In this document: positions 27,794-35,846 of the stretch, piece after piece
Layout of the letters: each line of letters opens with the position of its first letter
Numbering within the stretch: position 1 is the first letter of the stretch
Assembly (NCBI GenBank): GCA_947177485.1
Contig: CAMWUR010000021.1
Location: 1 to 35,846 of the forward strand
Source of the DNA: an uncultured Helicobacter sp.
GTDB lineage: Bacteria; Campylobacterota; Campylobacteria; Campylobacterales; Helicobacteraceae
Direction: 5' to 3'
Length of the DNA stretch: 35,846 bases
Notes under the pieces: model-generated
The model's input: only the letters and a program-made list of their open reading frames with translations
Databases searched by the model: none
What the model was told of the DNA's origin: nothing
Position numbers and translations under genes: made by a program

Positions 27794-30181
27794 ATGATGT
27801 TCCCAACCGAATTTGGCTTGATTTTAAACGTGCTCTTTACGCTCATCATGTTTTTTTTAGCATGGCTTGATTGGCGCAGTTTTGGCTCGCAAAACCACAA
27901 AGATTTCAAGTCGGTGATTATGAGCACAGGTGTGCTGGGGACATTTGTTGGAATTTTTGTCGGATTGTTAGGCTTCGACACGACCAAAGTAACAGATTCG
28001 ATTCCGCTCTTGCTCGATGGGCTCAAGGTGGCGTTCTATACCTCGATTGTCGGAATGGGCATTGCGATTGCGCTCAATATCGCCCAAAAGGGACGCAAAA
28101 AAATGTCTACACCAAAGAGTGGGACAGAATATCTCAACGCGCAGCTCCAAAAGCTTGAAATGCTCGAACATCTCGAGGAGCTCAAGAATGTCTCGAGAAT
28201 GCATAATTTTTTGCAAGAAAGTTTTGCTAGACATGAAAAAGCGCGCGAAAGCGAGCAGCGCGCCGAGAACGAGCGCTTTACTGCTACGCAACATCTCTTG
28301 CAACAAGGCTTTGCAGGGATTGAGACAAGCCTTGCAGCAGCGCTCGAAAAGCTTGCTAAAGGCGCGAGTGAGGGGCTTATCGAGGCTCTTGCTGGTGTGA
28401 TTCGTGATTTTAATAAAAACCTAAACGAGCAGTTTGGGCAAAATTTTGTCGAGCTCAACAACGCTGTGGGTGCAATGGTCGTGTGGCAGCGCGATTATCA
28501 GGGGACGCTCGACAAAACCCAAGAATCATTGCGGCAAATGGAACAAAGCTTTGCCCAAAGCGTCAGCGCGATTGAGCAGGTTGCCGCGCGCAATCGCGAG
28601 GTGATGGAGTTCTATGCCGACCTCAAGGAGTTTTTGTCATCATCTCAAGAGAGTGCCGAGCAATTGCGCACGCACCTTAGTGGCATTGCCGCGCTGGGCG
28701 ATGACGCAAGAGAATCATTGCTCAATGTGCGCACACTCTTTGACGAATCGGCACAAAAAATTGGCAACCTTGCGAGCAGTCTGCAGCAGAGTTTCAAAGA
28801 ATCCGAGGACGACCTCGTCCGCCGAATCAAGCAATTTGGTGACAACTCGACAGCGACAATCCAACATCTCACGCAGAATCTCATCACGCATAGCGAGATT
28901 CTCAAAAACCATATCGCGAGCAATAGCGATGCGCTCAAAGAAAGCTTTGTGATGTTTGGCGACAATGTCAAAAACTTTAGCGCAAATCTCAACAGCGAGA
29001 TTATCGGAATCTACCACAACGCAGCGCAGCAGATTCACCAAGACAGCGAGCAATTTGCGCAAACGATGACACAACAAAGCAACGCGATTCAAGGCAAGCT
29101 CGCAACGCTTGCAAGTACAGGCGAGCAAAGCCTCACGCAGCTCCATAGCAAACTGCAAACAGTCGCGGAGCAAAACAGCGCATTACTCGAAGATTCGCTG
29201 CAAAAAAGTCAAAATGTGATGGAACAGCGCAGCCAAAAAATCGAGCAGTTGCTCGGCATGCATAGCGAGCAGCTGCAAAACAATGTGGCGCGCCTCACGG
29301 GCGATGTGATGGGTGCAATCGAGCAGATGAGCAATGAAGTGCGTACTCTAAGCAGCAAAGTGCGTGAGGATATGACACAAACACTACAAGTAATGCGCGA
29401 AGAGATGCTGAAGATGACAAATCTGACGAAAGAGGGCATGACGGCTGGTGCAAACGCGATGGTCAAGCAGAATCGCGTGTTTTTGGAAGGAATTGGCAAC
29501 CAAACTAAGGAATTTTTCACTCAATCGCTCAATGATTGGCAAAAGGAGCAAAAGCAAGCAATCGGTGCGATTTCGCAAAACTTTCAAGCCCTTGTGGGCA
29601 GTCTTGCAGGCAATCTCAAAACACTCAATGACGGACTCAACAGCGGCATTAGCGAGATTAAGGAGAGTTTGCGCAACCTGCTGGGCGATGTTGTGAGCGA
29701 CCTCAAACACGGCGCGGAGGAATACAATAGCGCGTCTCTTGCCGTGCTCGAATCCAACATCGAGCAGATTTCGAGCAAGATTGTCGTCTTGCAAGAAACC
29801 TCGCACCACTCGCTCGAGCGCATTGCGCAGGAATATTTGACGCAGTTCAAGGCGCTCATGAGCGAGAGTGTGAATATCCCCAAAGACGCGAGCATGCAGA
29901 TTCTAAGTGAGATTGAGAATCTCCAAAAAGGCATTGCGGCAAACCTGATTGCGGCAAATCAAAGTATCTTGAACAACAAAGAAGAAGTGCGCGCGATTAT
30001 CGACAATGTGAATGCGCATTTGGAGAATCAACTGACAGAAACGCAGAAAATCAGCAGCAATCTTTACGATTCCTTGCAAGCGCTCGATGGCTCGATGAGC
30101 AAGCTCACTGAAGGTTTCAAGGGCGATTATGAATGGTTCTTGCGCCGAATCAGCGAGTTCATGGGCTCGCATAGGGGCTAG
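27794..30181 (+). CDS. ZorA-like MotA/TolQ/ExbB-family protein with long coiled-coil tail
   Basis: This is a 795-residue protein with three membrane helices near the N-terminus (about 8-26, 42-61 and 76-97). TM2 carries STGVLGTFVGIFVGL and TM3 carries LLLDGLKVAFYTSIVGMGIAI, the pattern of MotA/TolQ/ExbB channels of the ZorA subgroup. From about residue 110 to the end it is a cytoplasmic, Ala/Gln/Ser/Glu-rich, nearly continuous helical or coiled-coil tail, with methyl-accepting-protein-like regularity. In Zorya antiphage systems ZorA and ZorB form a proton-driven motor with a long internal tail. Only the A/B pair occurs here. ATG at 27794 or 27797 (the latter better spaced after AAGGA). Composition matches the housekeeping genes around it. 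Confidence 0.82.
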   Translation: MMFPTEFGLILNVLFTLIMFFLAWLDWRSFGSQNHKDFKSVIMSTGVLGTFVGIFVGLLGFDTTKVTDSIPLLLDGLKVAFYTSIVGMGIAIALNIAQKGRKKMSTPKSGTEYLNAQLQKLEMLEHLEELKNVSRMHNFLQESFARHEKARESEQRAENERFTATQHLLQQGFAGIETSLAAALEKLAKGASEGLIEALAGVIRDFNKNLNEQFGQNFVELNNAVGAMVVWQRDYQGTLDKTQESLRQMEQSFAQSVSAIEQVAARNREVMEFYADLKEFLSSSQESAEQLRTHLSGIAALGDDARESLLNVRTLFDESAQKIGNLASSLQQSFKESEDDLVRRIKQFGDNSTATIQHLTQNLITHSEILKNHIASNSDALKESFVMFGDNVKNFSANLNSEIIGIYHNAAQQIHQDSEQFAQTMTQQSNAIQGKLATLASTGEQSLTQLHSKLQTVAEQNSALLEDSLQKSQNVMEQRSQKIEQLLGMHSEQLQNNVARLTGDVMGAIEQMSNEVRTLSSKVREDMTQTLQVMREEMLKMTNLTKEGMTAGANAMVKQNRVFLEGIGNQTKEFFTQSLNDWQKEQKQAIGAISQNFQALVGSLAGNLKTLNDGLNSGISEIKESLRNLLGDVVSDLKHGAEEYNSASLAVLESNIEQISSKIVVLQETSHHSLERIAQEYLTQFKALMSESVNIPKDASMQILSEIENLQKGIAANLIAANQSILNNKEEVRAIIDNVNAHLENQLTETQKISSNLYDSLQALDGSMSKLTEGFKGDYEWFLRRISEFMGSHRG

Positions 30182-30183
30182 AC

Positions 30184-30942
30184 ATGCAAAGGGATAGCGA
30201 GTGGATTAGCATTTCGGATATGATGGCGGGGCTCATGATGATTTTCCTGCTCATCACGGTCTCGTATATGCTGATTTCAGAGCACAACCAAGAAGAATTG
30301 CGCAAAAGCAACGAGGAATTGCGCGCCGTGAGCGACAAGATGAGCGCGATTGCCGAGGGGTATTATGACATTGAATTCGCACTTTATCATGACCTCATCA
30401 GAGAATTTGGCGATGATTTGAAGATGTGGAATGCCGAGATTGATTCGGGGAACACGATTCGGTTCAAAGAACCTGATGTGCTGTTTGCCACAGGCGAGGG
30501 CGCGATTCAGCAGCGGTTTAAAAAGGTGCTCGATTCGTTTTTTCCGCGCTATATCGCGATTCTCTCGAGCCCGAAATATCGCGAGAGTATCGAGGAGATT
30601 CGCATCGAAGGGCACACATCGAGTGAATGGAAATCCTCGCACGACCTCGTTGAACGTTATCTCGAAAACGCCTCGCTTTCGCAAGCACGGGCATTTTCTG
30701 TATTGCAATATTGCTTCAACCTGCCCGATGTACGTGAGCGCGATTGGCTGATTTCTGTGCTCCGCGCCAACGGCTTATCGTTTGCCAAGCCGCTCGAAAC
30801 AGACGCACTCTCGCGCCGTGTCGAGTTTCGGACGATTACCAAGAGCCGCCAAAAAATCCAAGAGATTTTCAATATCAAAGAAGAATCCACAATCTCTGCC
30901 GAGGTTGCAAGCGAGCTTGAAAAGGCATTGTTGCACGATTAA
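30184..30942 (+). CDS. ZorB-like OmpA/MotB-family motor protein
   Basis: This is a 252-residue protein with one membrane helix (about 13-32) entered by SISDMMAGLMMIFLL. D12 sits where MotB/ZorB carry the ion-binding Asp. A helical linker (33-60) is followed by a periplasmic OmpA/MotB peptidoglycan-binding domain: VLFATGEGAI (99-108), IEGHTSS (141-147), LSQARAFSV (165-173) and SRRVEFRT (210-217). It begins two bases after the ZorA-like stop. Together they should form a peptidoglycan-anchored stator. No ZorC, ZorD, ZorE or nuclease gene follows; copA does. I infer a motor pair of unknown output, related to Zorya A/B. Confidence 0.85.
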   Translation: MQRDSEWISISDMMAGLMMIFLLITVSYMLISEHNQEELRKSNEELRAVSDKMSAIAEGYYDIEFALYHDLIREFGDDLKMWNAEIDSGNTIRFKEPDVLFATGEGAIQQRFKKVLDSFFPRYIAILSSPKYRESIEEIRIEGHTSSEWKSSHDLVERYLENASLSQARAFSVLQYCFNLPDVRERDWLISVLRANGLSFAKPLETDALSRRVEFRTITKSRQKIQEIFNIKEESTISAEVASELEKALLHD

Positions 30943-33345: not shown

Positions 33346-33374
33346 TTGACATTATCCGCAATTTGTGGTAGAAT
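33346..33374 (+). promoter_or_regulatory. Strong sigma-70-type promoter
   Basis: TTGACA (33346-33351) and TAGAAT (33369-33374) are separated by exactly 17 bases, the best -35/-10 pair in the window. Transcription would start near 33381, about 200 bases before the ATPase gene at 33584. Confidence 0.65.
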
Positions 33375-33583
33375 ATGAATCTTTGCGTATTGTCGTAATT
33401 GCTGTGGCTTTGGCGCACAGGCGATTTGCAAGACATCAAGCGAGAGAGCAAGCAAGATAGAACTTGTGCCATTGTTTCTCGCGTTGGGCGGTTGCGCCCC
33501 TAGTTTGCCATGTGATGTTGCGATTGAGAATCGCCGCTTTGCTCATGGCATGTTTGGTTTGTATTTTGCCATTAGGAGCGAGA
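33375..33583 (+). other. Long leader or gene remnant before the ATPase gene
   Basis: About 209 bases lie between the promoter and the ATPase start. They contain a GGGCG-GTTG-CGCCC hairpin (33486-33499) without a U-run, and from an ATG at 33515 a signal-peptide-like reading (MLRLRIAALLMACLVCILPL) that runs in frame into the ATPase but has no ribosome binding site. It could be the 5' stub of a lost secreted-protein gene, or an untranslated leader. Confidence 0.45.
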
Positions 33584-34612
33584 GTGGAGAAGGGCAGTAT
33601 TGTTCTGACACTTGAAAATATAGGAATGCTGAAGAAAGCGCAGGTTGACATCGGCGGCTTGAGCGTCATCGCTGGCGAGAATGACGAGGGCAAGAGCACC
33701 GTTGGCAAGGCGCTGATGGCTTTGATTAAAGCAGAAAATACTTTTGTAGAGAAAACATCTCCTAAACATGCCAAACAATCTTTTAATCGTTTGATTGATT
33801 TGCTTTTTGATAATCAAATGACTGAAAAGGGTTATTTGAATCTTGAAGTCAATAGGGATGAATTTTATAAAGTAACAATTGTAGAAAATGAATGTATTAG
33901 CTTTGATAGAGGATTCAGTAGCAGATTTTCTGATTGTACTTTTGTACCAAGTCCTTTGATTTGGGATTTATATAACTTTTTTTCGTCTGTTGCGGTATTA
34001 GAGGTTGAAAATAGGTTTTATCAAAGCAATCAAAATGAATTTGACTTTAAATATCCTTATATTCTGTGGGATTTATATAGAAAAATATCCATAGAACGTC
34101 CATGTTTGATAAGAGGAAGCATTCAAGAAATCAAAGAGTATGTTCAAGAAATTATGAGTGGTTTTTTTATTAAGAAACAAGGTAAATACGTATTCTACAA
34201 ACCCGAATCAGACTTTCAAGTGTCAATAATGAATACAGCAACAGGAATTAAAAGTTTTGGCATATTACAAATGTTGATTCAAAATGATTATATGACCGAA
34301 AACAGCTTTACTATCTTCGATGAACCCGAAAATCATCTCCACGCCACATGGCAGGTGAAGTTTGCCGAGATTCTTGCGCGACTTGTGCAAAACCACGTTT
34401 GCATTATGGTGAATACGCATAGCCCCTATATGCTCGAAGCGTTGCATAAATATGGAAAAAAGTACGCAATTAATACAAATTTCTATTTGGCAGATAGTGG
34501 CAAAGTTGAGCAAATCGATAATGACAATAGTGCGACTTTGGAAAAGATATATAAAAAACTGAATCAGTCTTTTATCTCTTTGGACGAAATATTAGATGAA
34601 GAAGAGGAATAG
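33584..34612 (+). CDS. AAA/ABC-type ATPase (AAA_15/AAA_21-like), possible defence ATPase
   Basis: This is a 342-residue cytoplasmic ATPase of the SMC/OLD/RecF-like kind. Motifs: an N-terminal strand pair (LTLENIGMLKKAQVDI), Walker A GENDEGKST (31-39), a signature-like TGIKSFGI (220-227), Walker B FTIFDEPEN (242-250) with D246/E247, and the NTHSPYML switch (277-284). Length is short because the coiled-coil or insert part between Walker A and B is only about 200 residues. The GTG at 33584 has AGGAG five bases upstream. Walker A and Walker B/H-loop coding stretches are GC-rich, while the segment between (about 33720-34310) is AT-rich, suggesting a mosaic. It lies five bases before a gene with a PD-(D/E)XK-like motif; OLD- or Septu-type pairing is inference. 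Confidence 0.8.
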   Translation: MEKGSIVLTLENIGMLKKAQVDIGGLSVIAGENDEGKSTVGKALMALIKAENTFVEKTSPKHAKQSFNRLIDLLFDNQMTEKGYLNLEVNRDEFYKVTIVENECISFDRGFSSRFSDCTFVPSPLIWDLYNFFSSVAVLEVENRFYQSNQNEFDFKYPYILWDLYRKISIERPCLIRGSIQEIKEYVQEIMSGFFIKKQGKYVFYKPESDFQVSIMNTATGIKSFGILQMLIQNDYMTENSFTIFDEPENHLHATWQVKFAEILARLVQNHVCIMVNTHSPYMLEALHKYGKKYAINTNFYLADSGKVEQIDNDNSATLEKIYKKLNQSFISLDEILDEEEE

Positions 34613-34617
34613 AAAAC

Positions 34618-35172
34618 ATGGCTGATTTAGGTGTTTTGAAGGGAATTTTTGAACCCTATGAATCGACTTTGCAGGACACAAGCTATGATTTAACAAACAA
34701 AAAATATCTCTGCCAAAGCCAAGAAAGAGTCATTAATTTTGACAAATACACACAAACAAAAGCGCAAAAATCAAAATGTAAAGCCAACAAATCTTTTGAC
34801 ACGCTGTATTTTCACCATGAAACTTCTAGCGTCTATTGTGTCGAGTTTAAGAATCAAAAATATAGCGACATTGATAGCGATGATATTAGGGAAAAATTTA
34901 TATATGGAATTGCTCAATTAAGAGAAATTTTTATCTCTCAAAATATTAATACAGATAATTTTACTTTTAATCTCTTTGTTGTCTTTAAGAATCCACGAGA
35001 AACAAGAGCCTTTCACACAAGGTTTGTAGAAACAGAGACTTTTTTTGGTTTAGATACGAAAAAATTTAAAGAAAGCCTAGCAAAAATTAAATCTCTCAAA
35101 ATAAAAACAGGCTATGGGGCTCAATTTGGGAAAATCTACAAAAAGCTATTCCACAATGAAAGCAATTGCTAA
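34618..35172 (+). CDS. Unknown protein with PD-(D/E)XK-like nuclease motif
   Basis: This is a 184-residue cytoplasmic protein, AT-rich in coding sequence. D61 (KSFDTLYF) and E76-x-K78 (VYCVEFKNQ), 14 residues apart on two predicted strands, fit the D-(x)n-ExK pattern of restriction-endonuclease-like nucleases; a helix with Q100 (GIAQLREIF) and a further strand (FNLFVVF) follow, as in that fold. No signal peptide or membrane segment is present. The ATG has AGAGGA upstream overlapping the ATPase end, five bases after its stop, so the two are one operon. The pairing recalls ATPase-plus-nuclease defence systems. I could not match it to a named family; the nuclease call is by motif only. Confidence 0.65.
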   Translation: MADLGVLKGIFEPYESTLQDTSYDLTNKKYLCQSQERVINFDKYTQTKAQKSKCKANKSFDTLYFHHETSSVYCVEFKNQKYSDIDSDDIREKFIYGIAQLREIFISQNINTDNFTFNLFVVFKNPRETRAFHTRFVETETFFGLDTKKFKESLAKIKSLKIKTGYGAQFGKIYKKLFHNESNC

Positions 35173-35190: not shown

Positions 35191-35778
35191 ATGTCCTACA
35201 AAACCTATTGGGAAAACTACTACAAATCCCACGCCGCTCCCCAGCGCGAATCGCGCTTTGCTGCGTTTGTGTGCGAGCAGATTCCGCGTGGAGCAGCACT
35301 TCTTGAGCTCGGTTGTGGCGATGGGCGCGATGCGCTGTTTTTTGCCAAGAACGGCATGCACGTGTGCGCCATCGACCAAGCCAGCAGCGAGATTGCCTAC
35401 CTCAACGCGCATTACGCGCAAAACACGAATCTCCGCTTTGTCGCGGGCGATTTTACAGCGCTTGAAAGCTTCGACTTCGCGCAATCAAGCTTTGATTGTG
35501 TCTATTCACGTTTCACTTTGCATTCAATAGACGCAGAGGCGCAAACCCGCGTCTTTCGCGCCACACTTGCCTTGCTCAAAGACGGTGGAATCTTTGCAAT
35601 CGAAACGCGCGGGACAAAAAATGCGCTCTATGGCAAAGGCGAGCCAGTAGAAGGCGAAGAAGACGCATTTATCCACGATAACCACTATCGCCGCTTTGTA
35701 CATTTTGAACGTGTGGTTGCTGAACTTAGCGCAACCACAATGAGCGGGGGGGGGGGGGTGTTTTGTGTGTTGTTGTGA
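35191..35778 (+). CDS. Class I SAM-dependent methyltransferase, 3' end corrupted
   Basis: This encodes a methyltransferase with motif I ALLELGCGDGRDALFFAKNG, motif post-I (VCAIDQASSE), VAGDFTAL, and motif IV-V region (FDCVYSRFTLHSIDAE, LLKDGGIFAIETRG). The target (small molecule, protein or nucleic acid) cannot be told. The ATG at 35191 has GAGGT five bases upstream; it follows the nuclease-like gene by 18 bases, with composition back to the window's usual level. From the 13-G run at 35746 the reading (SGGGGVFCVLL then stop) is not credible protein, so the real C-terminus, perhaps 15-30 residues more, is missing or garbled. Confidence 0.85.
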   Translation: MSYKTYWENYYKSHAAPQRESRFAAFVCEQIPRGAALLELGCGDGRDALFFAKNGMHVCAIDQASSEIAYLNAHYAQNTNLRFVAGDFTALESFDFAQSSFDCVYSRFTLHSIDAEAQTRVFRATLALLKDGGIFAIETRGTKNALYGKGEPVEGEEDAFIHDNHYRRFVHFERVVAELSATTMSGGGGVFCVLL

Positions 35779-35846
35779 GCGCGACCCCCCCGGGAGCCCC
35801 GGTGTGGGCCCACCCGGCTGTGTGGTTTGCCAGGGGCTGGAGAAAA
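35746..35846. other. 13-G run and probably unreliable sequence at the contig end
   Basis: Thirteen G (35746-35758) are followed by about 88 bases of T/G-rich and then C/G-rich sequence unlike the rest of the window, with several homopolymer runs and no coding sense. It looks like low-quality or chimeric read-end sequence. A genuine phase-variable poly-G tract that broke the assembly is the alternative. Confidence 0.6.

Follow-up and report, generated by a model that had tools for sequence, protein, structure and literature searches.

A conserved pair of an ATPase gene and a predicted nuclease gene in Campylobacterota, probably of the 'OLD-ABC ATPase + novel REase' class

Introduction

WonAB, encoded by the WASA-1 prophage of Vibrio cholerae, is a tested member of the class of operons named 'OLD-ABC ATPase + novel REase'. 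Protection is reported to need both the ATPase and its PD-(D/E)xK partner, and the K71A and Walker mutants were inactive (PMC12137116). The system is reported to act by abortive infection, in which translation is inhibited and genomic DNA is not degraded. WonB was toxic only together with active WonA, which its authors count against simple sequestration, and they describe the WonAB-like class as a larger family, still uncharacterised, in which nucleases are paired with ATPase sensors (PMC12137116).

Here, we describe a two-gene unit near the end of a 35,846-nucleotide stretch of DNA (the window; contig C21 within a genome of 2.04 Mb and 97 contigs). As in WonAB (PMC12137116), an OLD-type ABC ATPase gene is followed in a two-gene operon by a gene for a small PD-(D/E)xK protein. 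A preliminary description of this DNA had proposed an antiphage ATPase-nuclease pair whose small partner matched no known kind. The latter point does not stand, as WonAB is a close published analogue (PMC12137116). The antiphage reading is supported by the co-occurrence of the two genes and by the predicted fold of the partner, antiphage activity itself being what we infer from them. With a probability of roughly 0.75, and by analogy, we take the pair to be one operon that would work like WonAB as an antiphage system of the abortive-infection type.

Results

The gene pair and its site in the window

The gene order at the end of the window was copA, copP, the ATPase gene, the partner gene and a methyltransferase gene. 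The ATPase gene (33584..34612, on the forward strand like all features given below; 342 aa; the putative sensor/regulator) and the partner gene (34618..35172; 184 aa; ATG start at 34618; the putative effector) are separated by five bases between the ATPase stop and the partner ATG, as the preliminary description had it. Each gene is preceded by a plausible ribosome-binding site, which for the ATPase gene is likely the AGGAG at 33574..33578, five bases before a GTG codon. This GTG at 33584 is a likely rather than a proven start, because the reading frame stays open farther upstream, with a TTG at 33464. A candidate sigma-70 promoter with an extended -10 was found upstream of the pair in a consensus scan (33346..33374; TTGACA-17-TAGAAT with TG before the -10). 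It had been called strong, and its sequence is good (11/12 of the consensus, with TG), but the region contained five promoter-like sites compared with 5.9 in shuffled sequences, a count not above chance, so that the promoter is plausible only.

The pair was AT-rich, with a GC content of 0.336 against 0.458 for the window; this earlier claim holds except for the first ∼150 bases of the ATPase gene, which are host-like (0.50). Just 15 of 343 segments of the same size had a GC content as low as that of the pair; two of the 15 lie on the pair, the others at the opposite end of the window. Within the ATPase gene (33584-34612) the GC content was mosaic: 0.50 at the 5' end, ∼0.29 in the middle and up to 0.46 around the Walker B and H-loop codons. 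Exchange of ATPase segments within the genome was rejected as the source of this mosaic, as no other DNA match above noise was found in the window's own genome.

The interval between copP and the methyltransferase gene had been suggested as an insertion site. Two of the four other genomes in the genus, both sister genomes, have a copA orthologue, and in neither was the pair present beside copA/copP. The methyltransferase gene is not beside them there either, so that no clean empty site was seen. The methyltransferase gene of the window (35191-35846) is cut by the contig end, where the sequence turns G-rich from about 35746, probably as an artefact; a longer homologue (frame of 242 aa) was found at another location in genome G116. 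Directly before copA (27794-30942), PADLOC recognised genes for a ZorA-like (795 aa; ZorA2, 9.4e-56) and a ZorB-like protein (252 aa; ZorB2, 1.6e-75). No ZorC/D/E-like gene was recognised beside them, and the copA regions of the two sister genomes were without ZorA/ZorB-like genes. The window's own genome contains two more ATPase genes (L033, 1458-3105 on contig C10; L039, 1357-3101 on contig C18), each adjoining a frame of 206-234 aa that looked Toprim/RloB-like by eye; these may be PARIS-like or related pairs.

Motifs and profile matches of the ATPase

All motifs reported for the ATPase were present at the residues given for them: Walker A (GENDEGKS, 33674..33697; residues 31-38 with K37), a signature-like motif (NTATGIKS, 34232..34255; residues 217-224), Walker B (FDEPENHLH, 34316..34342; residues 245-253 with E247) and the H-loop (NTHSP, 34412..34426; residues 277-281 with H279). 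They were conserved in an alignment of five sequences. The variable middle of the protein (33734..34207; residues 51-208; GC 0.29), which we propose as the sensor region, had the lowest identity and the most variable length among relatives. In Pfam the ATPase matched AAA_15 (2.8e-13) and AAA_21 (1.4e-12), both above the cut-offs. The best PADLOC models were HEC-02A (2.7e-27, residues 8-311), PD-T4-4_A and NsnB, and all five ATPases of that first alignment matched alike. The ATPase was also matched by PDLC04146, a PADLOC model of 344 positions labelled HEC-02B. The other HEC-02B models encountered have 171-184 positions and match small nucleases, and the label of PDLC04146 was taken as inconsistent within the PADLOC library.

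Predicted active site and fold of the partner

The residues D61, E76 and K78 described for the 184-residue partner were confirmed, with the codon of D61, the predicted active-site aspartate, at 34798..34800 and those of the ExK motif E76-F77-K78 at 34843..34851. In an alignment of 28 partners (17 close and 11 distant) the only invariant positions (28/28) were these three and K93 (34894..34896), located in the helix that follows the ExK strand. F77 was shared by 27/28, D42 by 26/28, S22 and F41 by 25/28 each and Cys32 by 22/28. The 17 close rows leave out the fragments L016 (a short piece), L019 and L020, which scored under 80, and the 28-row alignment leaves out the distant partners L067-L069, L071 and L072. 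All 17 close partners end in a cysteine or have one close to the end (C184 in the window), and nearly all have another at position 32.

The window partner had no match in Pfam, PADLOC or NCBIfam at E up to 1, and none among PDB sequences. Partners of its relatives gave weak Pfam matches to NERD (L005 and L035), the arenavirus L-protein N-terminus (L003) and HSDR_N (the partner from a phage) with E of 0.0003-0.06, below the cut-offs and amid unrelated weak matches; these, too, point to the PD-(D/E)xK superfamily. The structure model of the window partner was of moderate quality (pLDDT 65), its C-terminal third being under 50 and unreliable, and that of the relative L004 was better (pLDDT 77.5, pTM 0.76). 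Both models had a strand at 62-66 after D61, a strand at 71-78 ending in ExK, a helix at 87-107 and a strand at 116-123. This is the order of the PD-(D/E)xK core, with D...(D/E)xK on strand-strand-helix-strand. The best Foldseek match of the window model had a non-significant E of 0.034 and that of the L004 model an E of 0.2, no match to PDB or viral structures falling below 0.001. In a second structural comparison with the L004 model, the first 13 of 50 rows were restriction-enzyme-fold proteins, judged in part by title (BsmI, Nt.BspD6I, McrC, FokI, Can2, R.BspD6I2, Upx and YdjA-YdiS; Z 4.9-6.4), with Z below 8 for every structural match of the partner and 6.4 for the best. Upx and YdjA-YdiS are presumably proteins of this fold. 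The predicted fold is thus of the nuclease type that had been expected, at weak scores, and the models support, but do not prove, a PD-(D/E)xK nuclease.

Many PD-(D/E)xK defence effectors cut DNA, and the nearest structural matches of the partner (BsmI, McrC, FokI) are DNA nucleases. The same pair could therefore act through a partner that degrades DNA, of the phage or of the host chromosome, instead of RNA. Against this stands the inhibition of translation without degradation of genomic DNA by WonAB, whose partner is a presumed relative (PMC12137116). We regard DNA as the less probable target, though a serious contender.

Co-occurrence of ATPase and partner

A pattern scan of named genomes gave four relatives of the partner, in Sulfurimonas, Advenella, Sulfurovum and another Epsilonproteobacterium. 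The partner profile found 16 of 397 Campylobacterota genomes, the window's own included, and within the window's own family (121 genomes) this was the only one. In all 19 distinct loci the ATPase gene was directly upstream of the partner gene, L006 and L021 having been dropped as duplicates of L005 and L016. When the same 397 genomes were searched with the ATPase profile, 17 had a match with E below 1e-90. Sixteen of these were the same genomes that the partner profile had found, and the seventeenth (G132) carried directly downstream a 76-aa remnant that matched the partner profile with an E of 5.3e-9. The co-occurrence on which the proposed pairing depended was nearly complete among the 397 genomes, a partner or its remnant being directly downstream of 17/17 close ATPases.

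Thirteen of these 17 partners were full-length, one was cut by a contig end (G181), one was interrupted by a stop codon (G264) and two were core-deleted (G344 and G132), an internal deletion having removed the catalytic core while the frame and both protein ends were kept. The core-deleted partners lie around 5165-5437 in L107 and at 2777-3004 in L055, beside full-length ATPase frames. A disabled partner next to a full-length ATPase frame thus occurred in three copies (G344, G132 and G264), as expected of a costly effector, and the in-frame partners that lack the catalytic core may be kept as disarmed forms. Loss or breakage of the partner while the ATPase frame stays could also be read as the mark of a toxin-antitoxin or selfish maintenance pair, in which the ATPase would restrain a toxic nuclease and the unit would persist without a defence benefit. 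The tight two-gene unit would suit such a pair, as would the RelE/ParE pairs found near by on one Acinetobacter plasmid and one Klebsiella plasmid. A pure antitoxin, however, should decay once its toxin is gone, yet the three full-length ATPase frames remain, and WonB is toxic only with active WonA (PMC12137116). We consider a maintenance pair unlikely.

Of 15 more distant ATPase matches, the 13 with loci were examined (E 1.6e-79 to 3.2e-27), and in each case the next frame downstream encodes a protein of 136-212 residues. E-x-K was present in 11 of these 13 partners. By motif the class is not uniformly catalytic, because the remaining two, L071 and L072, have E-x-S. Other Campylobacterota pairs had a PD-T4-4_B-like (L037, 5.4e-9) or a HEC-02B-like partner (L035), and related pairs were found on a Klebsiella plasmid, an Acinetobacter plasmid and a phage contig. 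In one profile comparison the plasmid and phage partners matched the Campylobacterota partners with a probability of 98.1% (E 1.1e-13), the Klebsiella partner alone reaching just 32%. Judged by sequence, these varied partners indicate that one ATPase class combines with several related nucleases. Searches with the partner in viral contigs, plasmids and phages and with the ATPase in viral contigs gave no match. Among 369 genomes of the class to which Advenella belongs, the ATPase profile matched 5 at 1e-20, and only the Advenella match was strong.

Occupation of the purE-glyQ junction

The neighbours of 12 loci were mostly housekeeping genes and not defence genes. A defence-island setting, as raised in the preliminary description, was therefore rejected for the family. 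Exceptions outside these 12, judged by eye from ORFs only, were the Advenella locus L003, which adjoins a pair of an ATPase and an HNH-like gene, and L002, where an IS21-type ATPase gene and a PemK-like gene occur. In six loci (contexts of the 12 loci plus L004 and L005) the pair was located between purE and glyQ. Of 78 genomes of one Campylobacterota genus, 66 gave a match to purE, and the purE-glyQ junction was classed for 64 of the 66 purE matches, without G806 and G829 (loci L138-L197, L096-L098 and L107). The junction was empty in 48 of the 64, the two genes being 12-176 bases apart, and it held the pair of this family in 12, one of them core-deleted. The remaining four each held something else: L141 an ATPase and an E-x-K protein of another subtype, L144 a close ATPase with a frameshift beside a partner of a different subtype, L148 an ATPase after which the contig ends, and L157 unrelated genes. 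The occupied gaps were ∼1.1-1.9 kb, the same length as the pair, and so leave no room for an integrase. In this genus, ATPase-nuclease pairs insert at the purE-glyQ junction without leaving a scar.

These distributions bear on whether the two genes might serve cellular DNA repair, as a RecF/SbcC-like ATPase and nuclease, and play no part in defence. Repair systems also include OLD/SMC-like ATPases, and the neighbours are housekeeping genes, but the pair is present in just 1/121 genomes of the family and 16/397 of the phylum and is absent at 48/64 purE-glyQ sites, and its hypervariable middle and AT-rich make-up are unlike a repair gene. A repair function is very improbable.

The pair was AT-rich compared with its flanks. 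Between the purE-glyQ sites of genomes G276 and G307 the flanking proteins were 97 and 98% identical, whereas identity was 49% for the partners and 63% for the C parts of the ATPases, whose middles measure 273 and 118 residues. In 15 comparisons among six purE-site loci, the ATPase N parts were 72-93% and the C parts 57-81% identical, against 35-69% for the partners (the deleted one of G344 included) and 23-60% for the ATPase middles. The region between Walker A and the signature is the most variable part of the ATPase. In a tree of the conserved ATPase parts, in which 12 of 25 inner branches were weak and L008 was set as 'other' without its context, purE-site and other-site members were mixed. 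The tree required at least six site changes, at least three of them forced by well-supported branches. The window ATPase joined L017 by two long branches, and this placement is unsure. The pair is conserved and horizontally exchanged. Repeated gain, loss and exchange of pairs at one site is the simplest reading of the purE-glyQ junction; vertical descent with extreme divergence is possible for some pairs.

Discussion

Because its architecture is the same as that of WonAB, the same scheme is proposed for the pair described here. The ATPase would dimerise around ATP, and its middle (residues 51-208) would sense a product or a state of phage infection. It would then license the partner, which would cut nucleic acid through D61, E76 and K78. 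By analogy with WonAB the target would most likely be RNA (tRNA or rRNA) that the host requires for translation, with DNA as the alternative, and the infected cell would stop before phage particles form.

The antiphage reading is favoured by the defence-like evolution of the pair, namely its patchy occurrence, its AT-richness relative to the flanks and the divergent pairs between near-identical flanks. A hypervariable ATPase middle would fit a sensor in an arms race, and disabled effectors would fit a costly effector. We count against it the housekeeping neighbours, the partner without a HEC-02B or PD-T4-4_B match, the non-significant Foldseek results and the E-x-S partners.

A literature search for the pair or the purE-glyQ site yielded no paper, and one on HEC-02 and NsnB nothing relevant, among the matches listed; with no description found among these, the distribution pattern at purE-glyQ is new here. 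As a tentative idea, which we think more doubtful than not, ATPase-nuclease pairs could be exchangeable cassettes at fixed housekeeping junctions that act as integrase-free exchange sites. The host flanks would recombine, and the ATPase sensor region and its matched effector would change together, so that lineages would differ in the detector that they carry at a shared site. The copP-methyltransferase interval may be another such junction. One site with many alleles, a variable ATPase middle and disabled effectors point to the part that probably senses, and if this is true, what these ATPases detect becomes testable through the middles of natural alleles.

Among the known systems, Septu (PtuAB), PARIS (AriAB) and Gabija (GajAB) likewise pair an OLD/ABC-type ATPase with an effector, which is an HNH nuclease in Septu, a Toprim protein in PARIS and Toprim plus helicase in Gabija. 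Assignment to Septu was rejected, as the partner has D...ExK and no PtuB or HNH match in Pfam, PADLOC or NCBIfam. The same libraries gave no AriB or Toprim match to the partner, which excluded PARIS. For Gabija, the 342-aa ATPase lacks a Toprim match, and the next genes encode the 184-aa partner and the methyltransferase, not a UvrD-like helicase. PD-T4-4 is alike in combining an ATPase with a PD-(D/E)xK nuclease, and the ATPase matches PD-T4-4_A (7.9e-22, best stretch 179-286), but the window partner had no PD-T4-4_B match at E up to 1. The ATPase matches HEC-02A over residues 8-311 (2.7e-27), whereas the window partner and 4/4 close relatives scanned had no HEC-02B match at E up to 1. By profile, membership in HEC-02 or PD-T4-4 was therefore rejected, the partner matching neither HEC-02B nor PD-T4-4_B.

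The closest likeness is to WonAB, compared here by the values given in PMC12137116. The distance from the Walker B glutamate to the H-loop histidine is 33 residues in WonA, by its numbering, and 32 in the window ATPase, while that from the Walker A lysine to the Walker B glutamate is 266 and 210 residues, respectively. The ExK lysine is at position 71 in WonB and 78 in the window partner; WonB is stated to be 16.1 kDa, and the window partner has 184 residues. WonAB is known from experiment, the window pair as a prediction from sequence. The 'OLD-ABC ATPase + novel REase' operons of Krishnan et al. (2020), as they are described in PMC12137116 and PMC12409358, have the same layout and the same two folds. 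On architecture and fold, and by comparison with the published features of WonA and WonB, the pair probably belongs to this class. If this is true, it adds to the WonAB-like class a Campylobacterota branch missed by the models searched, of which PADLOC knows the ATPase via related models only and the partner not at all.
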